In this document: positions 1,881 to 50,247 of the stretch, one piece after another
Numbering within the stretch: the stretch's first letter is position 1
How the letters are laid out: every line of letters starts with the position of its first letter
Source: Candidatus Woesearchaeota archaeon
Lineage (GTDB): Archaea; Nanobdellota; Nanobdellia; Woesearchaeales; JAFGLG01
Direction of reading: 5' to 3'
Length of the DNA: 64,000 nt
Assembly: GCA_016928155.1 (NCBI GenBank)
Contig: JAFGLG010000007.1
Span: forward strand, 184,973 to 248,972
Position numbers and translations under genes: made by a program
Notes under the pieces: model-generated
Database searches by the model: none
What the model saw: the letters and a program-made list of their open reading frames with translations, nothing else
Told to the model about the DNA's origin: nothing

Positions 1881-2122
1881 GGATATGACCTCTGGGATTA
1901 TTCAGCAGTGGTTACTATAGTGTTTTTATACTTTATAAATCTTTTGTTATTTCAATAACAGATGCATCATCAAAGACAGCAGAAAGCAAAAAGGATATTA
2001 AATGATACAGAAATAATAAAGCAATAATACAACAAGAATCTAATAATATGACAATGACATAGCAAATAATATAAACCAATACCAAAATCGACAGCTTTTA
2101 AAGGGCCCGTGGTCTAGCGGTT

Positions 2123-2138
2123 ACACACGATGCTGCAA
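2123..2138 (+). other. D-loop intron of tRNA-Val
   Basis: A 16-nt insertion in the D-loop. The 4-bp helix GCGG (2117-2120) with CTGC (2133-2136) is flanked by bulges TTA (2121-2123) and AAA (2137-2139). Cutting between the second and third base of each bulge restores GTCT-AGCGGTTA-TGAC, a normal D-arm. Confidence 0.72.
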
Positions 2139-2155
2139 ATGACGTCACCCTTACA

Positions 2156-2170
2156 AGCAGATGCTGAGTG
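2156..2170 (+). other. Canonical 37/38 intron of tRNA-Val
   Basis: Fifteen nucleotides between A37 and A38. Bases C32-A35 (CTTA) pair with TGAG near the intron 3' end, flanked by bulges CA|A and TG|A. It is unusually short for an archaeal tRNA intron. Confidence 0.78.
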
Positions 2171-2192
2171 AGGTGAATGTCCCCAGTTCGAT

Positions 2193-2229
2193 AGCATCAA
2201 ACATGACAGCAGATGTTTCCTGCAGAAAA
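2193..2229 (+). other. T-loop intron of tRNA-Val (59/60)
   Basis: A 37-nt insertion in the T-loop. T54-C56 pair with GAA and G57 faces A, with 5' bulge AT|A and 3' bulge AA|C. The intron contains the hairpin AAACAT/ATGTTT. The position and length match the T-loop intron of tRNA-Lys in this window. Confidence 0.65.
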
Positions 2230-2266
2230 CCTGGGCGGGCCCATTTCATGTTCGTGAGACAACAAA

Positions 2267-3104: not shown

Positions 3105-3318
3105 AACAAGGTGGGATTATCCCAACTTAATAAATATTATACTTATTCTATACCTATTTGCCTATTGCATCATAAATCTGAACATCTGGTATTAAGAATT
3201 TGCCCATTGCACAATCAATGATTTTGTTATCACATGTAAAGTTTATAAATTATAGTGGGTAAACTATTTAAATGGCCTATTATAGTGCTAGAATCCATGG
3301 GCCTGTAGCTTAGCCTGG

Positions 3319-3345
3319 AGCTGCGGCATGATGCTGCACGGGCAA
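3319..3345 (+). other. D-loop intron of tRNA-Ile
   Basis: A 27-nt insertion bounded by a BHB: GCCT (3313-3316) pairs with GGGC (3340-3343), bulges GG|A and AA|T. Its body is a 7-bp hairpin TGCGGCA-TGA-TGCTGCA (3322-3338). It shares GATGCTGCA with the D-loop intron of the nearby tRNA-Val, which hints at common descent. Confidence 0.72.
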
Positions 3346-3363
3346 TGGAGCACTGCTCTTATA

Positions 3364-3391
3364 TGGGCATGTTTCATACAGCTTCTAAGTG
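3364..3391 (+). other. Canonical 37/38 intron of tRNA-Ile
   Basis: 28 nt. CTTA (positions 32-35 of the tRNA) pairs perfectly with TAAG near the intron 3' end, flanked by two 3-nt bulges cut between the second and third base. Confidence 0.8.
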
Positions 3392-3461
3392 AAGCAGTGG
3401 TCGTGGGTTCAAATCCCGCCAGGCCCACTTTTTTCAAATAACCCACTCAACATGAATCAAG

Positions 3462-30608: not shown

Positions 30609-33230
30609 TTAAGCGCCCTCCATCTCCTGCTCAACGATCTTTTTCACATTGATCTTGCCGCCCTCGCTCTTCGATACATCCATGGAATCCTCTCCATACC
30701 TGAACTGGATGATCCTGTTGGAAGCTTCCCTCACAGTATCATCATACTCCACCTTCAGATCCTGCAGGGCATTGGCGAGACGCCTATAAAGATAACCTGA
30801 CTTGGGAGTCCTCAGCGCAGTGTCCATCAGGCTGTCCCTCCCTGTCATTGCCTGGAAGAAAAACTCATGCGGCTTCAGGCCGTCCCTGAAACCCTTCTTG
30901 ATGAAACCATGGGCATCAGGTCCGAGATCATCCTTCCTGAAACTGGGAAGAGTCCTTCCTGTGTAGCCCCTGTTGATCCTGCTGCCCCTGAGAGCCTGCT
31001 GTCCTACACAAGCAGCCATCTGAGCCATGTTAAGCGGGCTCCCTTTTGCACCGGACTCTGACATGACCAGACTCCCGGTATGCTTGGTCGTGTATTCAGA
31101 CACCAGCCTTCCTGTAGTGTTCCTTGCCTTGTTGAGGACCTCAAGTATCTTGAGCTCAAGCGTATCACTGATGCTCTTTCCAGGGAAAGGCTCCAAAGTG
31201 CCGTCATAGAATGACCTGATGAACTCATCGACCTTCCCGAAAGCCTCTTCCCTTGTCTCCTCTATCTTCTGGGCAGCTTCCTTGCTGACATCGCTGTCTG
31301 ATATAGAGCAGGTGAATCCGAGCTCGAATAGCACCTCGATGCCAAGCTTGAATATCTTGCCGATATACTCCACCATCCTGTCCTGGCCATACCTCTTATG
31401 GAGGTTCCTCAGGAGCAATCCCTGGCCTTCGCCGAGATTTGCCTTGTCCATGACCCCCTCAATGAGCTGGCCTTTCCTGATCGTGACATAATAATTGCCC
31501 CTGTCCTTCTTGGAGATCTTGTCCTCCATCCCGGGCTTGAACTTCTTTGTGTATCCTGTATAATTGAAATCATCCGGCAGGATCACAGAAAATATCTCCT
31601 TGCCGCTCACCATCTTCTTGTCAGGCAGCTTTGAGAAGTCATCGACGCCGGCATTCGCAAGCATCCTGACAGCCTTCCATTTAGGGACCTCGAACCAGTC
31701 CTGGGTCAGCAGATAGTTGCCTGATATGGCGTCCTGGGTGCAGCCGATTATGCTCAGGCCGAACCTCGGCGAGATGAGCTGGGTCTGGACCTCCATGAGG
31801 ATCTCAGCCTCTGCACGCGCCTCCTCTGTCTGCGGCACGTGGAGGTTCATCTCATCACCGTCGAAATCAGCATTGTAAGGCGTGCATACAAGAGGATTCA
31901 GCCTGAATGTCTTGTAGGGCAGTATCCTCGCCCTATGGCACATCATGGACATCCTGTGCAGCGAGGGTTGCCTGTTGAATATGCAGACATCCCCATCCAT
32001 GAGATGCCTCTCGACGACAAAACCTGGCTGAAGCTCTTCCAGCAGCTGCTCCTTGGTCTCATCTGTGATCTTCTTCTTCCTGCCGTCCGGCCTCACTATA
32101 TAATTGGATCCCGGATACGCAGCCGGCCCCCTCTCGATAAATCCTTTCAGATACTGCATGTTCCATGTGTTGACCACTTCAGGAACAGTTAGTTTCATGG
32201 CGACAGACTTAGGAATCCCGACCTCATTAAGCTTGATCCTCGGATCAGGCGATATGACTGTCCTTGCAGAGAAATTTGTCCTCTTGCCTGCAAGATTGTG
32301 CCTTATCCTCCCCTCTTTTGACTTGATCCTCTCTGTCAGTCCCTTGAGGGGTTGGCCTGACCTGTGCCTTGCCGGCGGGAGCTGCGGGACATTATTGTCG
32401 AAGAATGTAGTGACATGATATTGCAGCAGATCCCAAAGGTCCTCGATTATGATCTCCGGAGCTCCTGCATTTATGTTCTCGAAAAGCCTCTGGTTGATCC
32501 TGACGATATCACCAAGCTTGTGGGTGAGGTCGTCCTCTGACCTCTCGCCAGATTCAAGAGTGATGGAAGGCCTCATAGTGACAGGAGGGATAGGCAGCAC
32601 TGTAAGCACGACCCATTCAGGCCTCATCATCTGCGGGTTGATGCCGAATACAGGGAGATCCTCATCAGGTATCTTCTCCAGCCTGGACCTTATCTCTATA
32701 GGTGTTATCCTCTTCTCATTCTCGAGGAAGATGGTCGGCTTTTCAAGAGTTATCTTCTGCTGCCTTGCCTTGCAATAAGGGCATTTGTTGATTGTCTTCA
32801 TCGATGCGATGATCTCCTTGATCTTGCTCCTCCTGGCCTCCGGGCCGTATTCCTCGTCTATCTGTTCAAGGGTCTCGGCATTCTTGTCTATCTTGTTCTT
32901 GGGTATAAGTATCCTGCCGCACTCCTTGCATGTGCACCTCAGCAGATTTAGGATTATATCGACGAACTTAATGTGGATCACAGGCCTGGCCAGCTCGATA
33001 TAGCCGAAGTGGCCTATGCATTCCTTGAGCTTAGAACCGCAGGTCTTGCATTTGAGCCCAGGGTCGATGACTCCGAGCCTAATGTCCATCAGGCCTCCGT
33101 CGACCGGATAGCCTTCCTTGTCATAGAGCTCAGGAGTCACTATCTTGGCAGAAGCCATCTTCTTGACCATCTTAGGTGAAAAAATGCCGAAAACAATGCT
33201 TTCGATCTTCTTATGAACATAGTCTTCCAT
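30609..33230 (-). CDS. rpoA1: RNA polymerase subunit A'
   Basis: 873 aa. The catalytic metal motif [15 protein letters not shown] is present, as are the N-terminal zinc site ([16 protein letters not shown]) and a second CTCKECG. It forms the clamp and active centre. Eight nucleotides separate it from rpoB1 and one from rpoA2, so the operon is tightly packed. Confidence 0.98.
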
Positions 33231-36774: not shown

Positions 36775-36832
36775 TTTGACTCACAAGCTTTGTTTTTGCC
36801 CATATCATCAGCGAAATATGGGCCGGACGGGA

Positions 36833-36869
36833 CTTCCTAAACCACTTTTTTGAAATTTTTAGTGGCCTT
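36833..36869 (-). other. T-loop intron of tRNA-Lys (59/60)
   Basis: 37 nt, the same length and position as the T-loop intron of tRNA-Val. Contains a CCACT/AGTGG hairpin. The central helix is 3 bp plus a G-A pair. Confidence 0.65.
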
Positions 36870-36891
36870 TTCGGACCCGCGACCACCTGAT

Positions 36892-36919
36892 TCCCTCAAT
36901 TTCGCCTTATTACGAAATT
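36892..36919 (-). other. Canonical 37/38 intron of tRNA-Lys
   Basis: 28 nt. CTTT (32-35) pairs with GAGG (two G-U pairs), bulges TA|A and GA|A, and the intron body is a perfect 7-bp hairpin. Confidence 0.72.
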
Positions 36920-36966
36920 TAAAAGTCAGGTGCTCTACCAGGCTGAGCTACCGGCCCAAATTTAAA

Positions 36967-37059
36967 CGCCCTGGCCGGGATTTTCGTTTCTTGATCGAAT
37001 TCGAACCCGGGTCGAAGCCTCGACAGGGCCTCATGATGGACCGACTACACTACCAGGGC
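36967..37059 (-). tRNA. tRNA-Asp (anticodon GUC) with T-loop intron
   Basis: Acceptor GCCCTGG/CCAGGGC, G73, anticodon loop CTGTCGA, T-stem CCGGG/CCCGG. A 19-nt intron (36981-36999) sits at 59/60 with a perfect 4-bp central helix TTCG/CGAA and 3-nt bulges AA|T and AA|T; removal gives the textbook T-loop TTCGAAT. There is no intron in the anticodon loop. It lies 9 nt upstream of tRNA-Lys. Confidence 0.88.
36981..36999 (-). other. T-loop intron of tRNA-Asp (59/60)
   Basis: 19 nt. The clearest T-loop BHB in the window: TTCG pairs with CGAA between two 3-nt bulges. Confidence 0.78.
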
Positions 37060-49946: not shown

Positions 49947-50051
49947 CCAAACACCTCTTTAAGTATGATATGAAGGTCAAAATGAAGCTTTGTTTTTAAA
50001 TGTTATTCAGAAATACGGGACCCCATGAAGATAAATATCCCCGCCCCCGGA

Positions 50052-50100
50052 ATTTCAGGAAACCAAGCAGGTGCATCTCTGCTTCTCGCTTGGCTCAGCA
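50052..50100 (-). other. T-loop intron of tRNA-Tyr (59/60)
   Basis: 49 nt, with a perfect 4-bp central helix TTCA/TGAA between two 3-nt bulges. Confidence 0.75.
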
Positions 50101-50122
50101 TTTGAACCAGGAACCTTTCGGT

Positions 50123-50173
50123 ATCAGCTGGCTGTGGGTCATCCATTCCCGAACGGGATTGTCACACAGAACG
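50123..50173 (-). other. Anticodon-loop intron of tRNA-Tyr
   Basis: About 51 nt between G37 and A38, placed by the conserved stem and loop. CTGT (32-35) can pair with ACAG, but that leaves ten bases before the 3' stem, so the exact processing path is uncertain. Confidence 0.55.
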
Positions 50174-50247
50174 CTACAGCCGAACGCTCTAGCCGTTGAG
50201 CTAGGCGGGGATTGTGAGCAGATTTTTTCTAAAATCTTCGAAAAATA

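Follow-up and report, generated by a model that had tools for sequence, protein, structure and literature searches.

Archaeal tRNA genes interrupted by three bulge-helix-bulge (BHB) introns have been described previously (PMC8450103, PMC4090602). The tRNAPro (UGG) gene of Pyrobaculum islandicum carries introns at positions 25/26, 37/38 and 56/57 (PMC4090602), and published values are 0.84 introns per tRNA gene for Thermoproteales, 0.21 for archaea, and 71 introns in 46 tRNA genes for Pyrobaculum calidifontis (PMC8450103). Among DPANN archaea, multi-intron or non-canonical tRNA introns are found in ARMAN-1, ARMAN-2 and Nanoarchaeum equitans (PMC4033280, PMC6379350), and the tRNAIle (UAU) gene of the eukaryote Cyanidioschyzon merolae has three BHB introns, in the D-, anticodon and T-arms (PMC9602550). 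In archaea, multiple and non-canonical introns have been tied to splicing endonucleases (EndAs) of broad specificity, namely the (alpha-beta)2 and epsilon2 forms with CSL or ASL loops (PMC6379350, PMC4033280). In a limited literature search, we came across no publication dealing with Woesearchaeota tRNA introns, although earlier reports may exist.

Here, we analyzed a 64-kb stretch of DNA (the window; positions 184,973–248,972 of contig C7) from a Woesearchaeota genome of 1.48 Mb in 17 contigs, estimated to be 99.7% complete, and identified a tRNAVal (UAC) gene with three introns at window positions 2103–2243 on the plus strand. As in Pyrobaculum and other Thermoproteales, one of its BHB introns is canonical and two are non-canonical, and excision by EndA is proposed; however, the insertion sites (20a/21, 37/38 and 59/60) differ from those of P. 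islandicum, and only one EndA gene, with no CSL-like insertion, was detected, whereas the crenarchaeal enzyme is (alpha-beta)2 with a CSL. The three arms affected are the same as in C. merolae, in which the introns lie at 12/13, 37/38 and 53/54 and the endonuclease is of the Sen type (PMC9602550). In contrast to the broad enzymes of ARMAN-1 and ARMAN-2 (epsilon2) and N. equitans ((alpha-beta)2), the EndA found here is a lone alpha-type protein.

The gene spans 141 nt, with the anticodon TAC at 2152–2154, and a candidate TATA box (TATAAA, 2070–2075, plus strand) is predicted 28–33 nt upstream. Neither ARAGORN nor Rfam recognized it when given the raw window, and the unspliced sequence of 2103–2243 yielded no ARAGORN call. 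Excision of 16, 15 and 37 nt restored a normal 73-nt tRNA, as is expected of archaeal BHB tRNA introns: ARAGORN annotated it as tRNAVal (tac), and all of its stems were intact. An intron-aware tRNA finder written for this analysis, which leaves intron lengths free and considers introns in the D-, anticodon and T-loops only, recovered the gene with a score of 38.0.

Each intron was checked against the geometry of a 3-nt bulge, a 4-bp helix and a 3-nt bulge. All three conform to it, with BHB motifs at both junctions, and the central (H) helices form 4/4, 4/4 and 3/4 pairs, respectively. Intron 1 (16 nt, ACACACGATGCTGCAA; 2123–2138, plus strand) is inserted in the D-loop at position 20a/21, where GCGG pairs with CTGC over 4 bp between the bulges TT/A and AA/A, and its h' helix has 2 bp. 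Intron 2 (15 nt, AGCAGATGCTGAGTG; 2156–2170, plus strand) occupies the canonical position 37/38, with an H helix of CTTA and TGAG, the bulges CA/A and TG/A, and a 2-bp h' helix (GC with GC) closed by the loop AGAT. Intron 3 (37 nt; 2193–2229, plus strand) lies in the T-loop at position 59/60; its H helix (TTCG with AGAA) contains one G·A mismatch, the bulges are AT/A and AA/C, and the h' helix consists of GCA paired with TGC plus AAACAT paired with ATGTTT.

The initial annotation had given the mature T-loop as TTCGAAC, which corresponds to splicing of intron 3 at 57/58 or 58/59. Worked out by hand, these registers form fewer H pairs than 59/60, for which 3/4 was computed, and the mature T-loop is thus revised to TTCGATC, matching that of an intronless relative (L175). 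The suggestion that introns of 15–16 nt are among the shortest able to form a BHB was likewise mistaken as a claim of rarity, as archaeal tRNA introns range from 11 to 129 nt with a median of 15 nt (PMC3218864). Group I introns were considered and rejected, given that these introns measure 15–37 nt, whereas the catalytic core of that class alone takes up some 200 nt or more; Rfam detected no group I intron match in the window. Introns 1 and 2 have the sequence GATGCTG in common, and GATGCTGCA occurs both in intron 1 and in the D-loop intron of the tRNAIle (UAU) gene 1 kb downstream. These shared sequences point to intron transposition among the tRNAVal introns and the tRNAIle D-loop intron as a possibility.

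A pattern search of 117 genomes of the same order, followed by application of the intron-aware finder to the 40 stretches taken from it, provided 33 further tRNAVal (UAC) genes. Fourteen of these have no intron, 12 have one, 6 have two, and a single gene has three (L150, in genome G084 of another family). Within the three loops scanned by the finder, introns were located at 20a/21 in 4 genes (L150, L163, L168 and L171), at 37/38 in 13 and at 59/60 in 10, all matching the sites in the present gene, and position 59/60 is also used in approximately 12 further tRNA genes in the present genome. Among 21 T-loop introns, position 57 and its partner in the intron form G57-C in 10, G57-U in 1 and A57-U in 7, with 3 non-pairs (Fisher p = 2.5e-4 for the paired C/T cells, with relatedness ignored). 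The H helix of the D-loop intron also covaries, GCGG occurring with CTGC or CCGT and GTGG with CCAT or CCAC. On the strength of these shared sites and covarying H helices, 20a/21, 37/38 and 59/60 are predicted to be recurrent splice sites in this order.

The exons, the BHB geometry, the sites in relatives and the ARAGORN call after splicing confirm, at the sequence level, the initial annotation of three BHB introns in one tRNAVal gene at 2103–2243. Its view that such a gene is remarkable for a DPANN archaeon holds less well: the three introns are real, but multi-intron tRNAs are known in Nanoarchaeum and ARMAN (PMC4033280), and G084 also has three in its tRNAVal. With three-intron archaeal tRNAs, the same arms in C. 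merolae and the 15-nt median length all precedented, the gene is of a known kind.

Two explanations that dispense with splicing were weighed. A finder with free intron lengths has many degrees of freedom and might assemble a tRNA from anything; yet no match scoring at least 38 occurred on either strand of 12 Markov-shuffled 64-kb windows, in which the best score was 30, and up to 65 of the 73 positions in the mature exons agree with intronless tRNAVal (UAC) genes from genomes of the same order, which makes a chance assembly exceedingly improbable. Decay into a tRNAVal pseudogene that has acquired insertions would fit both the presence of three insertions and the failure of standard tools to recognize the locus. 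This reading is nonetheless very unlikely, considering that every stem is preserved after splicing, that the insertions fall exactly at the sites used in relatives and have BHB geometry, and that a TATA-like box is in place. Moreover, a pattern search allowing 2 mismatches found no second tRNAVal (UAC) gene in the genome, the only isoacceptors being CAC and GAC (L001 and L013). Because this search gave no other UAC gene, the three-intron gene is probably essential.

Introns are also abundant in the other tRNA genes. The six tRNA genes in the window contain 10 introns: apart from the three in tRNAVal and none in tRNAGly, tRNAIle (UAU; 3299–3427, plus strand) has a D-loop intron of approximately 25–27 nt and a 28-nt intron at 37/38; tRNALys (UUU; 36819–36957, minus strand) has a 28-nt intron at 37/38 and a 37-nt T-loop intron; tRNAAsp (GUC; 36967–37059, minus strand), whose ends are placed differently by ARAGORN, has a 19-nt T-loop intron; and tRNATyr (GUA; 50038–50210, minus strand), missed by both ARAGORN and Rfam, has a 51-nt intron at 37/38 and a 49-nt T-loop intron. 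Compared with the six genes present, ARAGORN and Rfam (at its gathering cut-off) detected two each, and such crowding of introns explains why tRNA genes are overlooked by standard tools in genomes of this kind. Genome-wide, we counted approximately 38 introns in approximately 35 recovered tRNA genes, 6 of which are intronless, with about 16 introns being non-canonical; this is our own partial tally, which leaves out genes hidden from the search and includes two hand-read genes (tRNAAla (CGC), L008; tRNAThr (UGU), L015) and two partly resolved ones (tRNASer, L020; tRNAArg (UCG), L021). The tRNA intron density of this lineage is thus similar to that of Thermoproteales. In other parts of the genome, several introns of the anticodon loop form only 3/4 H pairs, so not every intron is predicted to be a strict canonical BHB.

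Several other loci have unusual features. The partly resolved tRNAArg gene (C7:123381–123438, minus strand) has an insertion of approximately 34 nt just past an intact D-arm, near position 25/26. The tRNAVal (GAC) gene (C2:177117–177219; L013, 1501–1603) carries C rather than U at position 33, in the loop TCGACAC; the 16-nt motif with C33 occurs in about 9 other genomes of the order, including in an uninterrupted gene (L115) as well as in L133 and L140, and T33 forms occur in a few genomes. Three tRNA genes with long variable arms, G73 and T-loop introns (L241, C5:166300–166413, plus strand; L242, C7:104248–104362, minus strand; L024, C7:30146–30259, plus strand) have anticodon loops reading GAA, GAT and GAT, respectively, despite the presence of normal tRNAPhe (GAA) and tRNAIle (GAT) genes. 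An orphan 3′ half of a related tRNA (L243, C10:4423–4496, minus strand) has a T-loop intron of its own; the pattern search found no 5′ half for it, and it may be either a remnant or part of a split tRNA. In the window, a match to the raiA-hairpin at 31040–31078 (minus strand), ending GGUGCAAAAGGGA, scored below the threshold (23.9 versus 43.7 bits) and is probably due to chance.

A search of the genome with PF01974 and PF02778 identified a single EndA gene (C17:107834–108325), encoding a protein of 174 aa with PF02778 at residues 3–69 and PF01974 at residues 80–166. In the alignment, this protein retains the conserved Tyr, His and Lys motifs (RVYDRG, EDH and STKK). Its nearest sequence relatives come from Woesearchaeota and Nanoarchaeota MAGs, in agreement with the DPANN host suspected from the outset; some of these records are titled as other archaea or even bacteria, which we take to be a matter of MAG labelling. 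The EndA has no insertion resembling the CSL (crenarchaeal specificity loop): YGTKLANGKIQLSLLEALYL lacks the approximately 10 additional residues expected in the N-terminal domain between the motifs YG and LSL.EALYL, where the longer Archaeoglobus fulgidus chain 3p1y (315 versus 305 aa) has extra residues, 3p1y being read here as a CSL-grafted protein from its chain length and PMC6379350. A single gene for about 175 aa, with both domains, the catalytic Tyr, His and Lys and no detected beta gene, is characteristic of alpha4-type EndA, a narrow enzyme by the published scheme (PMC6379350), and the protein probably acts as an alpha4 homotetramer. The gene for RtcB is present on contig C6, so that an endonuclease and a ligase for BHB introns are both encoded.

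A competing possibility is that the introns are real but that a divergent beta subunit escaped the Pfam models, giving a broad (alpha-beta)2 enzyme as in N. equitans. Among PDB entries, the EndA indeed matches the N. equitans catalytic subunit (3iey_A) best, and the enzyme of that species is classed as (alpha-beta)2 and broad (PMC6379350). However, neither PF01974 nor PF02778 detected a beta subunit in the genome at E ≤ 10; a weak second PF02778 match lies inside a CysRS/NUDIX locus and was discarded. A survey of 195 genomes from the phylum gave one PF01974 match in most and two in some, and when 14 of the two-match genomes were searched again, most second matches proved weak and lay in unrelated frames of other lengths. 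One genome (G034) has two full-strength EndA copies, another (G036) has an incomplete second piece lying where a contig begins, and in G171 and G190 a second gene adjoins EndA. The 156-aa, beta-like second protein of G171 (a genome of family f104) matches NEQ261 (3iey_B) and PAE0789 (2zyz_A) in phmmer searches and lacks the catalytic Tyr, His and Lys motifs in the alignment, which shows that beta-like genes are detectable by the search used. Beta subunits do diverge, and because the second gene of G190 scored only E = 0.057, a divergent beta in the present genome is possible; on balance, we consider a hidden beta subunit unlikely.

We therefore return to splicing by the detected enzyme. The introns had initially been expected to fall if no broad-specificity endonuclease was present, and one alpha-type EndA with neither a beta subunit nor a CSL-like insertion is nominally that situation. 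We judge the introns not to be refuted, since each of them has the canonical 3-4-3 geometry said to be cut by narrow enzymes, and the introns studied closely could in principle be cleaved by a narrow alpha4-type EndA. The likeliest way to reconcile such an enzyme with the intron load is for the majority of introns to be canonical BHBs, albeit at unusual positions.

The gene is very probably a member of the archaeal class with BHB tRNA introns, its three introns being spliced by EndA and RtcB. A single 141-nt precursor would be transcribed and would form three BHB motifs, at 20a/21 in the D-loop, at 37/38 and at 59/60 in the T-loop, each with a 4-bp exon-intron helix and 3-nt bulges. EndA, encoded by the single detected gene and probably an alpha4 homotetramer, would cleave every motif at its two bulges, and the exons would be joined by RtcB into tRNAVal (UAC) with the T-loop TTCGATC. 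The sequence itself shows the exons, where the introns lie and their BHB geometry, the recurrence of these sites in relatives, the covariation and the presence of the EndA and RtcB genes; transcription, cleavage, ligation, the order of splicing and the homotetrameric state are what we infer. Counting against it are the G·A mismatch in the T-loop H helix and the short h' helices (2 bp) of introns 1 and 2. The energy of the proposed fold with three BHB motifs also lies 12 kcal/mol above the free minimum (−40.4 versus −52.8 kcal/mol), although a nearest-neighbour model of unbound RNA does not settle the question.

The unexpected part of this finding is the enzyme, as an intron density of the Thermoproteales type occurs alongside one alpha-type EndA. 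We tentatively suggest that a lone alpha-type EndA without CSL or ASL loops or a beta subunit may support roughly as many introns as there are tRNA genes, with many at non-canonical sites (in the D-loop, T-loop or elsewhere) and some with imperfect BHBs, in which case intron proliferation would need neither a broad (alpha-beta)2 nor an epsilon2 enzyme. Against the accepted link between broad-specificity EndA and multiple or non-canonical introns, this genome raises the question of how a tRNA set of this kind is processed by an EndA that seems to consist of alpha subunits only.
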